From positions 1 through 20,146 of IMG/VR virus record IMGVR_UViG_3300032342_000093: a DNA stretch of 20,146 nt; one strand, written 5' to 3'. A model generated the notes under the pieces. It searched no databases and was not told where the DNA came from. It saw nothing but the letters and a program-made list of their open reading frames with translations. The DNA comes from a virus. Positions 7,150 through 20,143 of this stretch are shown here, in pieces (position 1 is the first letter of the stretch; every line of letters starts with the position of its first letter). A program made the translations under genes and the position numbers.

Positions 7150-8010
7150 TTATACTTTAACTACAAGTAAGTTAAAGATTATTGTACCATTTACTGCGGT
7201 TGCAGCAGTAGCATTTGTAAGACTTACTGTAATAGTGTTAGTAGTACATACAGCTTGTAGAACAATACTTTGAGTAGTATTTGTACCACCAGCTAAAGTA
7301 GCAAATACTAAATCAGTTGCAGTAATACCTGTGTAAGTAATCGTTGCAACGTGAGTAGCCTGTCCTGCTGTTGTTAATGCAGCAGTAGTTACTTGTGCTG
7401 ATAATGTAGTCATTGTACCAGTTGAAGTTCCACCTGTACCTGTTAAAGTTCTAGCAGCGTTACCTCCACCTACCACAAATGAACCACTAGCACCAGGGTC
7501 TCTAATTGAAAGAACTCTTGAAGCTACTGGTGCAACTGCATTTATTGTTGTAGTATTAGTTGTACCAAGTACAAGTTGATTGGTAGTTTTTGCTATAGAT
7601 AACTCACTTGCAGCACCAGCAATACCTACATCACCTGTAAGGGTAATTGCACCTGTGATACCCACAGTTGTGGAGTCTAAGGCTAATGAAGCAGCACCAG
7701 CATCATACGCTATTGCATCACCAGAAGTTAATTTCTTTACTGTAAAATCAGTGTCTAAAGATGTACTATTGAATATAGTTGTACCAGCACCTGTACATGT
7801 AATCGGGCCGACTCCAGACAAAGCGTTAGTAGTATCTGCTATAATTAAACCAGAGTTTTGTAAAATACCAGTTGTTCCGTTAAACCTAGCAATAGCATTG
7901 TCTGTAGAACTAATTGTGTCCAACAAAACTACTCCATTACTATCTTGAAATTCAGAAGCCTTAATAGCAAGACCACTAAAATCCATTACATTTCCGCCTG
8001 TTAAAGCCAT
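7150..8010 (-). CDS. Head-fibre/tail-fibre-like structural protein, low complexity
   Basis: A 286-residue protein very rich in Thr, Ala, Gly and Ser. I start it at the ATG at 8010 because AAAGGAG lies just upstream of it. A longer frame opens with TTG at 8043, but that extension (MKYTPFLKEKY) covers the hairpin and the Shine-Dalgarno, so it is unlikely. Near residue 35 it has STDNAIARFNGTTGILQNSG, a motif found repeatedly in phage fibre and structural proteins. The middle has repeating TG/TS strands that fit a beta-helical or fibrous region, and the C-terminal ~95 residues may be a separate beta domain. Its position among capsid genes suggests a capsid-attached fibre or decoration protein; a tail-fibre component is the alternative. 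Confidence 0.65.
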   Translation of the reverse strand: MALTGGNVMDFSGLAIKASEFQDSNGVVLLDTISSTDNAIARFNGTTGILQNSGLIIADTTNALSGVGPITCTGAGTTIFNSTSLDTDFTVKKLTSGDAIAYDAGAASLALDSTTVGITGAITLTGDVGIAGAASELSIAKTTNQLVLGTTNTTTINAVAPVASRVLSIRDPGASGSFVVGGGNAARTLTGTGGTSTGTMTTLSAQVTTAALTTAGQATHVATITYTGITATDLVFATLAGGTNTTQSIVLQAVCTTNTITVSLTNATAATAVNGTIIFNLLVVKV

Positions 8011-8027
8011 ATATTTCTCCTTTAAGA

Positions 8028-8049
8028 AGGGAGTATATTTCAACTCCCT
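8028..8049 (-). terminator. Hairpin after the capsid/decoration genes, possible attenuator
   Basis: On the minus strand AGGGAGT (8049-8043) pairs perfectly with ACTCCCT (8034-8028) across an 8-base loop. It sits in the longest gap in this part of the operon, between the decoration gene stop (8058) and the next Shine-Dalgarno (about 8015-8021). It is not followed by a proper U run, so it is at best a weak terminator. A message-stabilising or processing hairpin is equally possible. Confidence 0.45.
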
Positions 8050-14809: not shown

Positions 14810-15175
14810 TTAACCTATTAATTCAAAGTGTGGGTAATCTCTCATCTTCCAATCACCGCCCCACTGTATCTTTACATTCTTCTGTAGAGCTATTTTTTTA
14901 ACTATAACAGCAAGTTCTTTAAACCTTTCTAAATCATTCCAATCTATTGGATAAGGGGCTATATCAACAGCTTTAGAAGGTAATGTATTATGTTTAGATT
15001 TAGGAAACTTTAACTTACTAAACCCATCTTTAAACGCTTTGTTTTGCTCTTCTTCTCCACGATGTCCACATAAAACAACAAAGTCATATTCTTTAATAAC
15101 TTCTTTAAACAAGTCTATTAATTGTGGGTTACAAGTATTTAATTTTTCTAGTGATTTTTTACTAAAACTAGGCAT
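14810..15175 (-). CDS. Endolysin, M15-family peptidoglycan peptidase
   Basis: A 121-residue single-domain zinc peptidase of the M15 family (VanY/L-alanyl-D-glutamate or D-Ala-D-Ala peptidase type), used by many phages to cut the peptide part of peptidoglycan. The metal site is complete: SKHNTLPSKAVDIAP gives His62 and Asp71, and WGGDWKMRDYPHFEL gives catalytic Asp113 and zinc ligand His116. An HRGEEEQNKAF segment (about 38-48) is the usual helix with the Arg and Gln that line the site. There is no signal peptide, so it should need a holin to reach the wall; a candidate is encoded two genes upstream. Its start overlaps the previous gene by 8 bases. Whether the target bond is L-Ala-D-Glu or a D-Ala bond cannot be told. 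Confidence 0.88.
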   Translation of the reverse strand: MPSFSKKSLEKLNTCNPQLIDLFKEVIKEYDFVVLCGHRGEEEQNKAFKDGFSKLKFPKSKHNTLPSKAVDIAPYPIDWNDLERFKELAVIVKKIALQKNVKIQWGGDWKMRDYPHFELIG

Positions 15176-15377
15176 TTAATAATTCCTTTTTAGCTTGTTC
15201 TAATAACCAAAGAACAGAACCTCCATTTGCTTTATTAGAAGAAAAATAAAACTCACCTTCTTTATCATACCCTATGACTACAACTTCTTCTAGTTCTGCA
15301 TTTGTAGCCCCATCTAAAACTCTTTCAACAGGGATATCTAATCTTGTTATAACGTTTAATAAAACAACATCACCCAA
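15168..15377 (-). CDS. Unknown 69-residue protein in the lysis block
   Basis: A small soluble protein starting at a TTG codon (15377) four bases after the stop of the membrane protein gene, with a weak GGTGG upstream. The body ELEEVVVIGYDKEGEFYFSSN followed by GGSVLWLLEQAKKELL looks like a compact alpha/beta fold; I recall similar small proteins in marine phages but know no function. It overlaps the endolysin gene by 8 bases, so the two are probably translated together. A lysis-control role is possible from position only. Confidence 0.6.
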   Translation of the reverse strand: MGDVVLLNVITRLDIPVERVLDGATNAELEEVVVIGYDKEGEFYFSSNKANGGSVLWLLEQAKKELLNA

Positions 15378-15381
15378 TTAA

Positions 15382-15732
15382 CTACCACCAAAAGTATATT
15401 GTATTTAAGAATTTTAGAAATGGAATTAAACTAATTAAAATAGCAGAGGCTGTAGGAATTAACCATAGAGCTGTTTTTACTACTAACCTAAAATCACTTA
15501 TAGCCTTTGTATTTTCATTTGTAGCTTCAGCACTTAAACCAGTGGCACTTACTAAATCACTAATAGACTTCTCAATAGTTTGAAGTATTCCTTGGTGATT
15601 ATGTATAATATTAGCATGGTCATGCTTAGTCTTTCTTAATTCTTTTACTTCAGTATCTATACCATCAAGTCTTTTAGAGTGAGCCTCTATAGCCCCTTTT
15701 AATTCTCCTACATCTTTTTCTGTATCACTCAT
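15382..15732 (-). CDS. Coiled-coil membrane protein, holin candidate
   Basis: I start this 116-residue protein at the ATG at 15732, one base after the upstream stop, with GGGAG at a workable distance. A longer frame from 15771 would overlap the previous gene by 38 bases and adds a doubtful 13 residues. The N-terminal ~80 residues are charged and heptad-like (DVGELKGAIEAHSKRLDGI, then EVKELRKTKHDH), a probable coiled coil. The C-terminal ~27 residues (ALWLIPTASAILISLIPFL...) form one strong membrane segment ending in FWW. This layout resembles XhlA-type haemolysin/holin-associated proteins. With an endolysin encoded just downstream, a holin or holin-partner role is the best guess; a spanin-like or unrelated membrane protein is possible. 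Confidence 0.65.
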   Translation of the reverse strand: MSDTEKDVGELKGAIEAHSKRLDGIDTEVKELRKTKHDHANIIHNHQGILQTIEKSISDLVSATGLSAEATNENTKAISDFRLVVKTALWLIPTASAILISLIPFLKFLNTIYFWW

Positions 15733-15733
15733 A

Positions 15734-16510
15734 CTATATATGCTCCCACCTACCACGCCAGCCAACAACATCGTTATTACTAACTCCCTCTCCTGTAGAT
15801 TTTACAGTAATTGTGTTAGTCTCGGTTAATGTTAAATTCGCTTCTATAGCGGCTTCTGTAACCACTGCGACAGTTCCAATTGTTGTGTATGTCTTCAATG
15901 TACCTGAAGCTCTTTGAGTGCTTACACCAGTGCGTATAATACCAAATTCAGCTTTCCAGACTCCAAGCACACTAAGAGGCAATACTAACGTTGCAAGAAG
16001 GGTCGCACCAGCTCGTATTCTTACTGTTTTTACATTGGCGTTATTAGCAGTGTACCCCCCAAAAGAATAACTGATTCCTCTCCCTGTGACATTAAACTGG
16101 TTAGCAACATGAGTGACAGACGTTAAGTCGTCCTCCCCAACTCCAACAGTACCGTAAGAAGTATAATCACTTCCTAAGTAGCCTGTTAAAGCAGCTACAG
16201 AAGCCCCTGCTGTAAAGAAACATGTTGTTCCAAGTAAAGCATAAGGGGAGTTTGCAGATATAGCCGTAATATGTGCTACATTCACGTTTCCATCAATATC
16301 ACGACTACCGAAGTAAACTAGGTCGTTTAATGTAGTGCCAGCAAAAACACCTTTACCATTAAGGAAAGTTAAATCACTAGAATTAACAAGTAGATTCTCT
16401 TTGAGAACTTTTACATTTCTATATAATCCACCACCTAACGCCTCCAGTACATCGAAATAATCACCAGTGTCTGGCGTTGTTAAAGGGGGGAAGTCACTTT
16501 GGTATGTCAC
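15734..16510 (-). CDS. Putative virion/tail-fibre-associated protein (258 residues)
   Basis: Starts at GTG (16510) with AAGGATAT upstream. The N-terminus (FPPLTTPDTGDYFDVLEALGGGLYRNVKVLKENLL) looks like the short structural lead found in phage fibre and spike proteins, where tests of the type 'TGDYF.VLE' precede a receptor-facing domain. The remainder is beta-rich. From about residue 145 it has ISYSFGGYTANNANVKTVRIRAGATLLATLVLP, a regular strand pattern that suggests a jelly roll, ending in VGWRGRWEHI. It has no catalytic motif that I can see. It lies between the esterase and the lysis block, so I group it with the host-contact genes as a short fibre or capping protein, with modest certainty. 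Confidence 0.58.
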   Translation of the reverse strand: MTYQSDFPPLTTPDTGDYFDVLEALGGGLYRNVKVLKENLLVNSSDLTFLNGKGVFAGTTLNDLVYFGSRDIDGNVNVAHITAISANSPYALLGTTCFFTAGASVAALTGYLGSDYTSYGTVGVGEDDLTSVTHVANQFNVTGRGISYSFGGYTANNANVKTVRIRAGATLLATLVLPLSVLGVWKAEFGIIRTGVSTQRASGTLKTYTTIGTVAVVTEAAIEANLTLTETNTITVKSTGEGVSNNDVVGWRGRWEHI

Positions 16511-16520
16511 AATAATATCC

Positions 16521-17417
16521 TTATGCTAATATTTCTGCTATTTTTGCTTGTAGAGTATATGGAGGGGTATTGCTTGCTAATCCATATCTCATACTTTTTA
16601 TTGAGTGTTGTCCATAGGTTAATGACATATACTCAGTTGAAGAAGGTATAGTTCCGATAACTGTTTGCATAGTAGCAAGGCTCATGTACGAACCAAAACC
16701 ACCACCAGCTTCTGGTACTATTGTATCAAGTTGGCTGGTTATTGAAGTAAAGTTACCAGTAAAACTAAAAGGTTCTGTACCTGCATAGTCAAAGGCAATC
16801 ACACCATTAATTGAAATGCAATGTGTAGGTTTGTATGTAAAGTTCTGTCTATATGCTTCGGAGGCGTAGTATATAGCCATCATCGCACCAGCAGAAACAC
16901 CATCAACTACAATTACTTGTGTAGCTGGGTTTATGTTATATCTGGCACAGCAAGCATCTACCATGTCTCTTGAAAAGTCCACGTCGTTTGGTGAGTTTGC
17001 ATTTGTAAAAGGCAATAGCGTCCAACACAACCCACCAACAACCCCATTATAAGCTGCTGTTGGGTAAACATGGATGTAGTCCTGCAAGTATGTTCCATCA
17101 AAATCTAAAACCCTGCGATAACCTCCACTACCATTATCCACGCCATCACCGTCAACATCACCATCACCAGAGCCATACCCACCATGAAAGTGGAAAAATA
17201 TACCTAGAATATCTTCAGGGTCAGTTTCTTCAGGAATTTCTACTGTATATCTTCTTAGGTTATTTTTATTATCCCTAAGATAATGTCTTTCTAATCTTGT
17301 GATAGGCGTTTCTATCTCTATAGGCAAACCTCCTTCTGTAAGCAAAGTACCTCCAAGCTCCCCTCTTATGTAAGTAGGGACAAAAGGTGTTTTTTGAAAC
17401 AGTAAGAGGTCTGACAT
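16521..17417 (-). CDS. Alpha/beta-hydrolase esterase (PHB-depolymerase/LpqC-like)
   Basis: A 298-residue serine esterase of the poly-hydroxybutyrate-depolymerase-like group. Visible: oxyanion-hole strand FFHFHGG (74-80), IHVYPTA followed by LCWTL (about 115-134), nucleophile motif GVSAG with Ser175 after strand TQVIVVD, candidate acid Asp231 in SQLDTIVP, and His271 in GQHS. The order Ser-Asp-His and the YP/CW pair match that family. The N-terminal ~50 residues (LGGTLLTEGGLPIEIET) look like a structural attachment segment, so it may be virion-bound. There is no signal peptide. Directly after HGG, residues 83-98 form an Asp/Gly-rich insert containing DVDGDGVDNG, which resembles a calcium loop of dockerin or thrombospondin type 3 repeats. 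Its place beside fibre genes suggests removal of ester groups (for example acetyl) from surface polysaccharide; the substrate is unknown. Confidence 0.8.
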   Translation of the reverse strand: MSDLLLFQKTPFVPTYIRGELGGTLLTEGGLPIEIETPITRLERHYLRDNKNNLRRYTVEIPEETDPEDILGIFFHFHGGYGSGDGDVDGDGVDNGSGGYRRVLDFDGTYLQDYIHVYPTAAYNGVVGGLCWTLLPFTNANSPNDVDFSRDMVDACCARYNINPATQVIVVDGVSAGAMMAIYYASEAYRQNFTYKPTHCISINGVIAFDYAGTEPFSFTGNFTSITSQLDTIVPEAGGGFGSYMSLATMQTVIGTIPSSTEYMSLTYGQHSIKSMRYGLASNTPPYTLQAKIAEILA

Positions 17418-17418
17418 T

Positions 17419-17766
17419 TTACTCTATTTCTCTTGTGTAGTATGTAAATGTTTTAGCAGTTTCAGTAGAACCAAACTCTAATTTACAATAAGGTACACCA
17501 GCAGTTAATGGTGGAGGAATAGGAATGTATTTACTTGAAGCAATAGTAGTTATAAAATCACCCACAGTAACATACTGTCCTAAACCATCATAGACATTAA
17601 CATAAGTACCTGCTGTAGAAGGTGCTACTTTTATCTTTAGAGTTGTACTAGCTATACTAGCAGGAGTCTGGACACCTACTAAAACACGCCTACCTAGGTC
17701 TATAGCAGCAGTAGTTGTGCCTGAAGCTATAGTAATAGTATTTGTTGAAACTAAACTTGCTGGCAT
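17419..17766 (-). CDS. Putative small structural protein (115 residues)
   Basis: A beta-rich protein with NTITIASGTTTAAIDLGRRVLVGVQTP at the start, an LKIKVAPSTAGTYVNVYD segment and an FTYYTREIE end. This pattern (gain of Thr/Ala strands, an hydrophobic 'VGV.TPA.I.STTL', then Y..VYD and a final strand) recurs in small phage proteins encoded near tail or capsid genes. No function is known to me. The ATG overlaps the stop of the Lys-rich peptide gene as TAATG, and the esterase starts just after its stop (1-base gap), so it belongs to the fibre/esterase group. Confidence 0.6.
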   Translation of the reverse strand: MPASLVSTNTITIASGTTTAAIDLGRRVLVGVQTPASIASTTLKIKVAPSTAGTYVNVYDGLGQYVTVGDFITTIASSKYIPIPPPLTAGVPYCKLEFGSTETAKTFTYYTREIE

Positions 17767-17897: not shown

Positions 17898-18389
17898 TTA
17901 TAATTTATTACGTTCTATTGTTATTAAAGCTTTCTGCTGAGCTATCCAGCCATTGTTTTCTGTAACAGCCTCTATTAATCTGCGAATTGTTACTTGTGCT
18001 TCAAGGCGTGATATTTCTATTAAAGCTAACTCTGCTACTGTAGGAGGAGGTTTTGGTTTCCATTCATTATTAATCCAAACATCCCCTTTTTTTGGAACTT
18101 CTAAAGTACACCCTTCTGGTACTGTATAAACTAGAGTATCTATACACCCTGTAATTACTCTTGTTGTACAATCGTAAATAACAGCACCACGCTTATCTTC
18201 TACATACTCCCATTGACCATTGACAAACACCCTTGCAAAACCATCTTTATGTTTAGAGGGTTTAACTTCTGTACTAGAAACTGGCATTAAATATTCTGTT
18301 TGAGTGACTGGGCATAGATTAGCGTTCTGTTCACCAATATACTCTTTTGTATATTTATCATAGGCATAAACTGTTTTAGTTTTTATCAT
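17898..18389 (-). CDS. Tail fibre assembly (Tfa)-like protein
   Basis: A 163-residue protein encoded 2 bases after the tail fibre stop, with ATAGGTAA upstream. It has the style of Tfa chaperones: an N-terminal YDKYTKEYIGEQNANLCPV segment (the 'x-TGEY-G...A..dP' pattern), then VFVNGQWEYVEDKRGAVIYD, close to the usual W...eDhRG..., then VWINNEWKPKPPPTVAEL leading to a C-terminal helical arm. Tfa proteins help fold and trimerise the fibre tip and may stay bound to it. The fibre-then-tfa order supports the call. Two cysteines (near residues 74 and 82) and one near 94 are odd for this family but not decisive. Confidence 0.7.
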   Translation of the reverse strand: MIKTKTVYAYDKYTKEYIGEQNANLCPVTQTEYLMPVSSTEVKPSKHKDGFARVFVNGQWEYVEDKRGAVIYDCTTRVITGCIDTLVYTVPEGCTLEVPKKGDVWINNEWKPKPPPTVAELALIEISRLEAQVTIRRLIEAVTENNGWIAQQKALITIERNKL

Positions 18390-18391
18390 GT

Positions 18392-19918
18392 TTACCTATA
18401 TTTTATTTGCATTGATATAACCATTGAAGGTTGCATGTTATTGTGTGCTGAACTACTGCCTCTACTGGTTGTAGTAAGTGTACCGTTCGCAGACCCGTCT
18501 GTTGCGTTCATAACAGTCACCGTTGCAGGTGCTGATATAGTACCACCAGTAGGGAATGTGTGTGAGTGAGAAGGCATTTCACTACTTGACAAAGTATGTG
18601 TCTCAGTACCACCAGTATTACCAACAGCGTTACCTAATGTTCCAGTTCCAGAGCCACCAGAACCAACTCTTGTAAGCCTACCTGAAGTTGGTACGTTAAA
18701 GGTTGTTGAACCATCACCTGAACCCCATGTAGTGCCTACTACAGCAAACAAACCAGAGTAAGTTGTTCTTGAAATAGCAGCACCATCACAAGCTAAATAA
18801 TCAGTTTGTAAAGTAGCTGTAGCAAAATCAATTATTGCTCCTACAGGAACAGCAGTAGTGCTAGAAGCTACTACAGGTAAACCACTAGCTTTCATGTAGT
18901 TAGTACATCTATAATCACCAGAGGCATATTCTACAAACTCAGCTTCATCTCCAGCAGCAGTAGTGATGTTAGCTCCACCTGGAAGGATTAAATCAGTAGC
19001 ATGGTGAGTTAAAGTTAAAACAGCATCAAAGTGTAATTTAATTACAGTACCTACTACACCTGTGGTGTTAAACGAAGTAACTGTAGTTGTACCAGTAACA
19101 TCGAAATAGTTACCATCAGTAAGTACAGGTAAAGCAGTTGCAGAAGCTACATCAGCTCCTTTAGACCATTGTAATTGATTACCATTCATGTTTACATCAG
19201 AGCCTATAGCACCTAAAGTACCAGCATCTCCCTTAGGAGTAAAGTGAATATAAACAACATCTGTATTACTGAATGTACCATTAGAAACTACATGGGAAAC
19301 AGGAATCTGTAACCAAGTGGTATTGTTAGTTATAGCACCAGTAATATTAAAAATAGCAAAGGTGGATTCTGAGCCACTCTTTCTTAAAACAAGTATTCCT
19401 TTAATTGTAGAGCTACTATCATCCCATGTAGTAATAAAAGAAGTTATATCAGGATTACCAGTAGAATTAGTTAAACTACTAATGGCTAGATTGGTTACAG
19501 AGGCAACTGTAGCATTGTTGTATCTAATATCCCCTGTACCTGGGTTAGCCATTGTAGTAGAGGTATCAAACAAGTATTTATGTGAAGGGGCTACAGCAGA
19601 TAAGGCAGCACTCTCAGAGGCTGTTTGAGATGCTAAGGCTGCGGCTGCTGAAGCGGCTGCTGCGGCTGTTGTACCTGCTGCACTTGAATTATCATCTACA
19701 TATTTTTTAGTAGCAGCATTATAGTCTGTAGTAGGAGTAGCTAAGTTTAGTAGTTGATTACCATCCATGTCTAAGTCATTAGACATAGTGTTAGGTGTAC
19801 TGCCATCTAAACTAACGGTATTATCAAAAGCAGTTAGAATATTAGTGAAATTACTATTTAACTGACTATTAGAAAGATAGCCAGAAGTAATAGTTGTAAT
19901 AGTAGGTCGTTTAGCCAT
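18392..19918 (-). CDS. Tail fibre with C-terminal tail-collar domain
   Basis: A 508-residue fibre and the first gene of the operon. The start MAKRPTITTITSGYLSNSQLN is the typical lead of podovirus fibres that attach to the tail. A DMDGNQLLNLATPTTDYNAATKKYVDD segment (50-76) is a standard fibre element, with a partial repeat at 241-250 (DVNMNGNQLQ). An Ala-rich linker follows (84-110), and a short KGDAGTLGAIG is collagen-like. Residues 355-412 (VPVGAIIDFA...YLACDGAAISRTTYSGLFAVVG...FNVP) form a phage tail-collar domain. Near the C-terminus are SHSHTF (His451, His453), a likely metal site, and the AHNNMQPSM..S.QIKY ending. It would form the receptor-binding trimer. No Shine-Dalgarno is visible before its ATG. 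Confidence 0.88.
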   Translation of the reverse strand: MAKRPTITTITSGYLSNSQLNSNFTNILTAFDNTVSLDGSTPNTMSNDLDMDGNQLLNLATPTTDYNAATKKYVDDNSSAAGTTAAAAASAAAALASQTASESAALSAVAPSHKYLFDTSTTMANPGTGDIRYNNATVASVTNLAISSLTNSTGNPDITSFITTWDDSSSTIKGILVLRKSGSESTFAIFNITGAITNNTTWLQIPVSHVVSNGTFSNTDVVYIHFTPKGDAGTLGAIGSDVNMNGNQLQWSKGADVASATALPVLTDGNYFDVTGTTTVTSFNTTGVVGTVIKLHFDAVLTLTHHATDLILPGGANITTAAGDEAEFVEYASGDYRCTNYMKASGLPVVASSTTAVPVGAIIDFATATLQTDYLACDGAAISRTTYSGLFAVVGTTWGSGDGSTTFNVPTSGRLTRVGSGGSGTGTLGNAVGNTGGTETHTLSSSEMPSHSHTFPTGGTISAPATVTVMNATDGSANGTLTTTSRGSSSAHNNMQPSMVISMQIKYR

Positions 19919-19973: not shown

Positions 19974-20028
19974 GTGTTATTTTAATAAAACATAAAATAA
20001 TCCTTAAGTAATAATTAATAAACATAAA

Positions 20029-20142
20029 TAGTTAATTAATTAAAACAAAATAGTTAATCTATCTATTATCTTTAATAAACATTAATAGATAGTTAATAGT
20101 AATTTAATTAATATCTTAAATAATAGTTAATAGATAGTTAAT
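20029..20142. repeat. Five TAGTTAAT boxes
   Basis: Exact plus-strand copies of TAGTTAAT start at 20029, 20051, 20090, 20124 and 20135, with start-to-start distances of 22, 39, 34 and 11. The 22, 34 and 11 steps are close to whole turns of DNA, and 39 is not. In such AT-rich DNA some copies could be chance, but five within 114 bases is dense. Confidence 0.6.
20059..20092. repeat. 10-bp inverted repeat
   Basis: CTATCTATTA at 20059-20068 is the exact reverse complement of TAATAGATAG at 20083-20092, with a 14-base AT-rich loop. The right arm overlaps the 17-bp direct repeat, and the same arm sequence recurs at 20128-20137. The all-AT-leaning stem would be weak as a hairpin, so a dimeric protein-binding site is the better guess. 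Confidence 0.55.
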
Positions 20143-20143
20143 A
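20082..20143. repeat. 17-bp direct repeat pair
   Basis: TTAATAGATAGTTAATA occurs exactly at 20082-20098 and 20127-20143, 45 bases apart. It includes one TAGTTAAT box in each copy. Confidence 0.75.

Follow-up and report, generated by a model that had tools for sequence, protein, structure and literature searches.

The phage surface esterases described in two publications (PMC13123978, PMC8471582) are SGNH enzymes, in agreement with the sequence-only reading of the DNA analysed here, which had considered this type the usual one. The SGNH deacetylases of phage surfaces, such as G7C gp63.1, Aristophanes gp41, and those of Klebsiella prophage fibres, carry out the reaction that is also proposed for the present protein, namely the de-esterification of host polysaccharide. 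However, they have another fold and are fused in the fibre or spike, whereas the putative enzyme studied here is a separate alpha/beta-hydrolase. In mycobacteriophages, an esterase involved in lysis, LysB, is known (PMC5707550). Its target is mycolyl-arabinogalactan, whereas the lineage of the phage studied here is known from proteobacteria. LysB has a fold of the alpha/beta-hydrolase type and, like the present protein, is a phage-encoded esterase of this kind located near lysis genes. Among bacterial enzymes, the LpqC/COG3509-type esterases (here L130, L117, L114, L099, and L138) share with the phage protein the HGG motif, the YP end of a strand, a CW/CC motif, the DV-F helix, the GxSAG/GxSNG elbow, the Asp in D-x-x-VP-x-GG, the late His, and the order of these elements. 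The phage protein differs from them in its sequence (about 21–31% identity in the alignments made), in a 13-residue Asp/Gly insert, in its short C-terminal part, in its location in a phage operon, and in that no signal peptide is seen. Regarding the insert, loops of the type Dx[DN]xDG bind calcium in many unrelated folds, aided by one or more acidic or amide residues further along the chain; they are thought to arise easily in acidic Gly-rich loops, even from a hexanucleotide repeat, and they occur as inserts (PMC3123361).

The gene is found in a window of 20,146 nucleotides, the whole stretch of DNA that was analysed (IMG/VR record IMGVR_UViG_3300032342_000093, positions 1 to 20,146). The terminase is about 60–66% identical to those of Celeribacter, Lentibacter, and Roseobacter phages (Cobavirinae), in which the fibre genes are also located upstream of the terminase. 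The relatives of the terminase and of the tail appendages point to a Zobellviridae/Cobavirinae-like phage of marine type. The nearest relative found for the esterase is an alpha/beta-hydrolase of 220 aa (Pfam Abhydrolase_2) encoded by IMGVR_UViG_3300032277_000056 (hereafter L133), a phage otherwise unrelated. The features of the locus, following the direction of transcription, are:

18392..19918, minus strand: tail fibre with a phage tail collar domain (PF07484, E 7.6e-15)
17898..18389, minus strand: tail-fibre assembly protein (phrog_105, E 3.6e-18)
17419..17766, minus strand: 115-aa orphan directly upstream of the esterase, with no phage relatives
16521..17417, minus strand: putative alpha/beta-hydrolase esterase (P0001), 298 aa, Ser175/Asp231/His271 (sequence, NF050058, profile alignment, fold search)
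17178..17186, minus strand: HGG, residues 78-80, following the oxyanion strand (beta strand 72-78 in the model; aligns with LHGG of the relatives)
17143..17169, minus strand: imperfect hexamer tandem repeat, CCATCA on the plus strand, 4.5 copies with 80% matches, coding for a Gly-Asp tract (repeat search)
17124..17162, minus strand: Asp/Gly insert GDVDGDGVDNGSG, residues about 86-98, with the Dx[DN]xDG core at 87-92 (sequence; gap in the relatives)
16887..16901, minus strand: nucleophile elbow GVSAG, residues 173-177, with Ser175 (sequence and alignment with relatives)
16725..16727, minus strand: codon of Asp231, the putative catalytic acid (sequence, alignments, and profile alignment)
16605..16607, minus strand: codon of His271, the putative catalytic base (sequence; aligns with the GHxW/YHSW His of the relatives)
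15734..16510, minus strand: 258-aa orphan directly downstream of the esterase
15382..15771, minus strand: coiled-coil protein with one C-terminal membrane segment, perhaps holin- or XhlA-like (a homologue follows the L133 hydrolase gene, E 3.8e-9)
14810..15175, minus strand: M15-peptidase endolysin (phrog_465, E 5.8e-42; PF13539)

The tail fibre, fibre assembly, and 115-aa orphan genes are thus followed by the esterase, the 258-aa orphan, and the coiled-coil membrane protein, and then by a 69-aa protein, the endolysin, a DUF1353 protein, a phrog_8035 protein, and the terminase. Other parts of the window present features of their own. Positions 1-2420 comprise about 2.4 kb with only short plus-strand ORFs, opposing the long minus-strand structural operon; AT-rich tandem repeats (a 22-bp unit in 2.2 copies and an 11-bp unit in 5.5 copies) are found at 20012-20143, upstream of the fibre gene, and may be regulatory or terminal. 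Near the capsid gene, positions 7150-8043 encode a Thr/Ala/Gly-rich protein of 297 aa with no Pfam or PHROG match, a possible fibre or head-decoration protein whose better start is probably the ATG at MALTGGNV.

The reading frame of the esterase runs uninterrupted on the minus strand from its ATG to the stop (16521-17417, 298 aa). The same protein, 100% identical, is encoded by two further IMG/VR contigs, whose DNA is 99.9% identical to the window over 15.4 and 8.0 kb with a handful of mismatches; therefore, neither the frame nor the insert is an assembly error. Yet another contig from this phage population stops short of the gene. The residue numbers given previously for the triad are exact; HGG occupies residues 78-80 and DVDGDGVDNG residues 87-96. 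Asp231 is located within SQLDTIVPEAGG (the LDTIVPEAGG stretch) and His271 within YGQHS, and the N terminus, as read from its sequence, contains no visible signal peptide.

The order of elements in the protein, with a GxSxG elbow between a strand and a helix followed by Asp and then by His, is the canonical one of the alpha/beta-hydrolase superfamily. For family placement, the five LpqC/COG3509-type relatives and the PHB-type relatives L110-L122 were used. A profile-profile alignment with the LpqC/COG3509-like relatives covers residues 54-240 (probability 96.8%, E 3e-10), and the addition of L133 raises the probability to 98.1% (E 1e-13). In it, HGG, the DV-F helix, Ser175, and Asp231 are paired with the relatives, while His271 is paired with the histidine of GHxW or YHSW in an alignment of five sequences. 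The triad goes beyond chance, since its columns match those of independent relatives and the profile alignments score well. The claim that it follows the order of PHB depolymerases is sustained by this alignment with bacterial PHB-depolymerase/LpqC-like alpha/beta-hydrolases, and the protein is probably an ester-cutting enzyme akin to bacterial PHB-depolymerase-like esterases. Membership of PF10503 (Esterase_PHB), the family named earlier as one to search, is not supported: a profile search gave no match up to E 10, and the Pfam search returned no significant family for the protein. The sole and best family match, NCBIfam NF050058 (extracellular catalytic domain type 1 scl-PHA depolymerase), is partial, covering residues 113-185 with an E of 1.6e-6 and scoring 27.8 bits, where the cut-off is 150. 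Because below-cut-off matches to NF050058 also appear in 13 of the 14 control genomes, this match indicates kinship within the alpha/beta-hydrolase superfamily only and not PHB-depolymerase membership. As for the SGNH/GDSL enzymes, Pfam gives no SGNH match for the esterase and the fold search returns alpha/beta-hydrolases. A Pfam match to Photo_RC (E 0.065) and matches to PDB 'pizza' entries were set aside as chance.

A structure model predicted by AF2 from five sequences is partial (pLDDT 47, pTM 0.55). Its elements follow the order b-HGG-a-b-a-b-Ser-a-b-b, which matches the arrangement of alpha/beta-hydrolases. When used for a fold search, it gave 324 PDB matches at E<=0.001, with a TM of about 0.35; the best 50 of them are mostly esterases, including feruloyl and acetylxylan esterases, and alpha/beta-hydrolases and esterases, phage ones among them, also predominate in the viral matches. 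The pLDDT drops under 50 at the insert and near both Asp231 and His271, where the model, triad geometry included, is unreliable. A single-sequence AlphaFold model (pLDDT 32) was discarded.

Relatives of the esterase are scarce in the collections searched. With the protein as a tblastn query, none was found in 50,697 phage records and nothing in plasmids, and a scan of cellular genomes with its peptides left none confirmed. The motif patterns used on IMG/VR contigs retrieved only one clear and two weaker relatives; both scans require exact peptide or DNA motifs and may miss distant relatives. DNA patterns for HFHGGYG led to unrelated proteins and those for VxGxSAGAM to structural proteins, while the pattern for GVSAGAMMA retrieved one true relative, L099. 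A sample of 398 genomes of one phylum yielded L130, a weak but real relative, and L131, a match that proved spurious. In 41 genomes of this sample HGG...DxDGDG occurs at the DNA level, and in none of the 20 such loci examined is it in frame in a GxSxG hydrolase. The 24 contigs with related terminases, most of them fragments and many ending short of the fibre region, gave no NF050058 or SGNH match. An approximate LpqC-like consensus used purely as bait in the phage collection retrieved two unannotated faecal contigs, and none of the conclusions draws on it. A second PHB-like esterase fragment on a phage contig is found at L132:4806-5393 (PF00756 and PF10503 above the cut-off), where a portal protein is also encoded.

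The insert is the most distinctive part of the protein. From HGG to the next strand there are 32 residues, compared with about 20 in the LpqC-like relatives; hhalign leaves residues about 86-98 unaligned, and HGGYGSGDGDVDGDGVDNGSGGYRRVLDF corresponds to HGGYGNPFDF of L133. Neither L133, the nearest phage relative, nor any bacterial relative aligned contains the insert. The sequence-only reading, which had placed it directly after HGG at 83-98, was thus right in that it is a true insert, and its extent has now been narrowed to about 86-98. The residues DVDGDG at 87-92, followed by Asp94 with one residue in between and by Asn95 with two, correspond to the Dx[DN]xDG motif as defined for such loops (PMC3123361). 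The likeness to the calcium loops of dockerins and thrombospondin type 3 repeats that had been noted holds for the DVDGDG core and the downstream amide and fails elsewhere. Position 12 of an EF-hand or dockerin loop would be Gly98, so the twelfth ligand is lacking; there is a single copy of the motif, no Cys in the stretch, and no Pfam match to EF-hand, dockerin, or thrombospondin type 3 families. Compared with the reference loops (PMC3123361), the site is also putative.

Two views of the insert have to be weighed, whatever the role of the enzyme. We favour, with modest confidence, the view that it is a flexible, non-functional Gly-Asp tract with no link to calcium, which grew or drifted where a surface loop tolerates change. 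Its absence from every relative aligned, its coding by the imperfect hexamer repeat, the non-acidic residue at EF-hand position 12, the low pLDDT, and the lack of any match to a calcium-repeat family in Pfam up to E 10 are consistent with this, as is the occurrence of the looser Dx[DN]xDG in 1.3% of shuffles of the esterase and in the fibre protein. On the contrary, the exact D-x-D-G-D-G spacing plus Asn95 fits the ligand pattern of the published loops (PMC3123361), and the stricter pattern D.D[GN]D[GN].D appears in only 0.01% of the shuffles. An origin by slippage also finds no independent proof in the DNA: the hexamer repeat is real, but the lag-6 identity of the coding DNA (20) equals the 20.0 expected from the peptide and the codon usage (P 0.60), so that synonymous sites carry no extra signal. 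The earlier reading had named a disordered loop absent from all relatives as a result that would speak against it, and half of this applies: the absence extends to every relative found, while the unreliability of the model at this point does not amount to disorder. Taken from its residues, calcium binding by the insert is possible, though rather doubtful; the insert is a loop specific to this lineage, at the entrance to the predicted active site, and Asp87, Asp89, Asp91, and Asn95 might bind Ca2+ and so fix it. In the more ambitious proposal, growth of the Gly-Asp tract gave rise to a new calcium site of the Dx[DN]xDG type, moulding the substrate pocket and making the enzyme a calcium-dependent surface deacylase unlike the phage SGNH enzymes. 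This would be a natural instance of the hexanucleotide-repeat origin proposed for such loops; it is improbable in our judgement.

With regard to the role of the protein, the best explanation is a putative serine esterase of the alpha/beta-hydrolase fold, near the LpqC/PHB-depolymerase-like (COG3509-type) and the feruloyl and acetylxylan esterases, which was acquired by a Zobellviridae/Cobavirinae-like podovirus. Ser175, polarised by His271 and Asp231, would attack the ester, and the loop after HGG would help to form the oxyanion hole, as family knowledge suggests. Judging from the gene spacing, expression would be late and tightly coupled to that of the fibre-proximal genes: the ATG is one base past the upstream stop, so that co-expression with the late genes is very probable, and a gap of 10 bases separates the gene from the next one downstream. 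Most likely the protein would travel with the virion, as a separate accessory to the tail fibres, and would strip acyl, probably acetyl, groups from the host surface polysaccharide during adsorption. This virion-borne, fibre-associated function in removing acyl groups from a host surface polymer is, to us, evenly poised. It is supported because fibre and fibre-assembly genes lie upstream with tight gaps and because the L133 hydrolase is also located after fibre genes. Against it, the esterase is also beside lysis genes, an order common to L133. The placement in a fibre cluster by the sequence-only reading is therefore correct for the upstream side and incomplete, as the gene occupies the boundary between fibre and lysis genes. 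The flanking orphans (15734-16510 and 17419-17766) have no match in phage records, which suggests a fast-changing slot; the GC and GC3 of the esterase and the downstream orphan, slightly above those of most neighbours, fit acquisition weakly.

In L133, fibre genes, one with a weak Phage_depo_C match and one with a weak LamG match, lie upstream of the hydrolase. Comparison with the window proteins gives E 5e-9 for this hydrolase, E 4e-9 for the coiled-coil membrane protein that follows it, and E 2e-42 for the M15 endolysin after that; the contig stretches compared have no other similarity to the head and tail proteins of the window phage at E<=0.01. The L133 hydrolase has motifs like those of the esterase triad (GISNGGMMA, SIRDKIIPYAG, and YHSW), and differs in its shorter length and in the lack of the insert. 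The neighbouring genes of the two phages (window 14810-15771 and L133:5551-6380) may form a shared fibre–lysis module. The common order means either that the usual fibre–lysis boundary collects accessory host-interaction genes or that the hydrolase belongs to the lysis module. For this reason, the main rival that we keep, and a serious one, is an esterase linked to lysis. In a Gram-negative setting, this helper, resembling LysB, would act with the coiled-coil membrane protein and the endolysin at the end of infection, cutting ester-linked groups such as O-acyl groups on peptidoglycan or envelope polymers. Conservation of this order in an otherwise unrelated phage and the precedent of LysB (PMC5707550) speak for it; nonetheless, there is one shared example only, M15 endolysins abound in phages (1272 records), the orphan at 15734-16510 lies between the esterase and the lysis genes, and fibre genes are directly upstream in both phages, so the slot may simply be the usual fibre–lysis boundary. 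We consider it unlikely. An intracellular accessory enzyme, encoded by a moron or auxiliary metabolic gene that is adjacent to the fibre genes by chance and directed at host metabolites or a storage polyester, would agree with the resemblance to PHB-depolymerase-like enzymes, the lack of a visible export signal, and the patchy distribution. It is quite unlikely, given the tight coupling to late structural genes, the signal-peptide-like segment with which L138 begins, and the lack of any other recognised metabolic gene in the window. LpqC-type relatives are mostly secreted, which also counts against it.

The kind of enzyme is known; what appears to be new, from its sequence, is a lineage-specific Asp/Gly loop on a phage alpha/beta-hydrolase esterase. 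If the insert binds calcium, it would represent a young calcium loop that one lineage has and its relatives lack, and it would make the published idea that such loops originate from Asp-Gly repeats testable. The presence of a separate alpha/beta-hydrolase at the fibre–lysis boundary of two otherwise unrelated phages suggests that phages may use a second fold for the de-esterification of the host envelope, in adsorption or in lysis.
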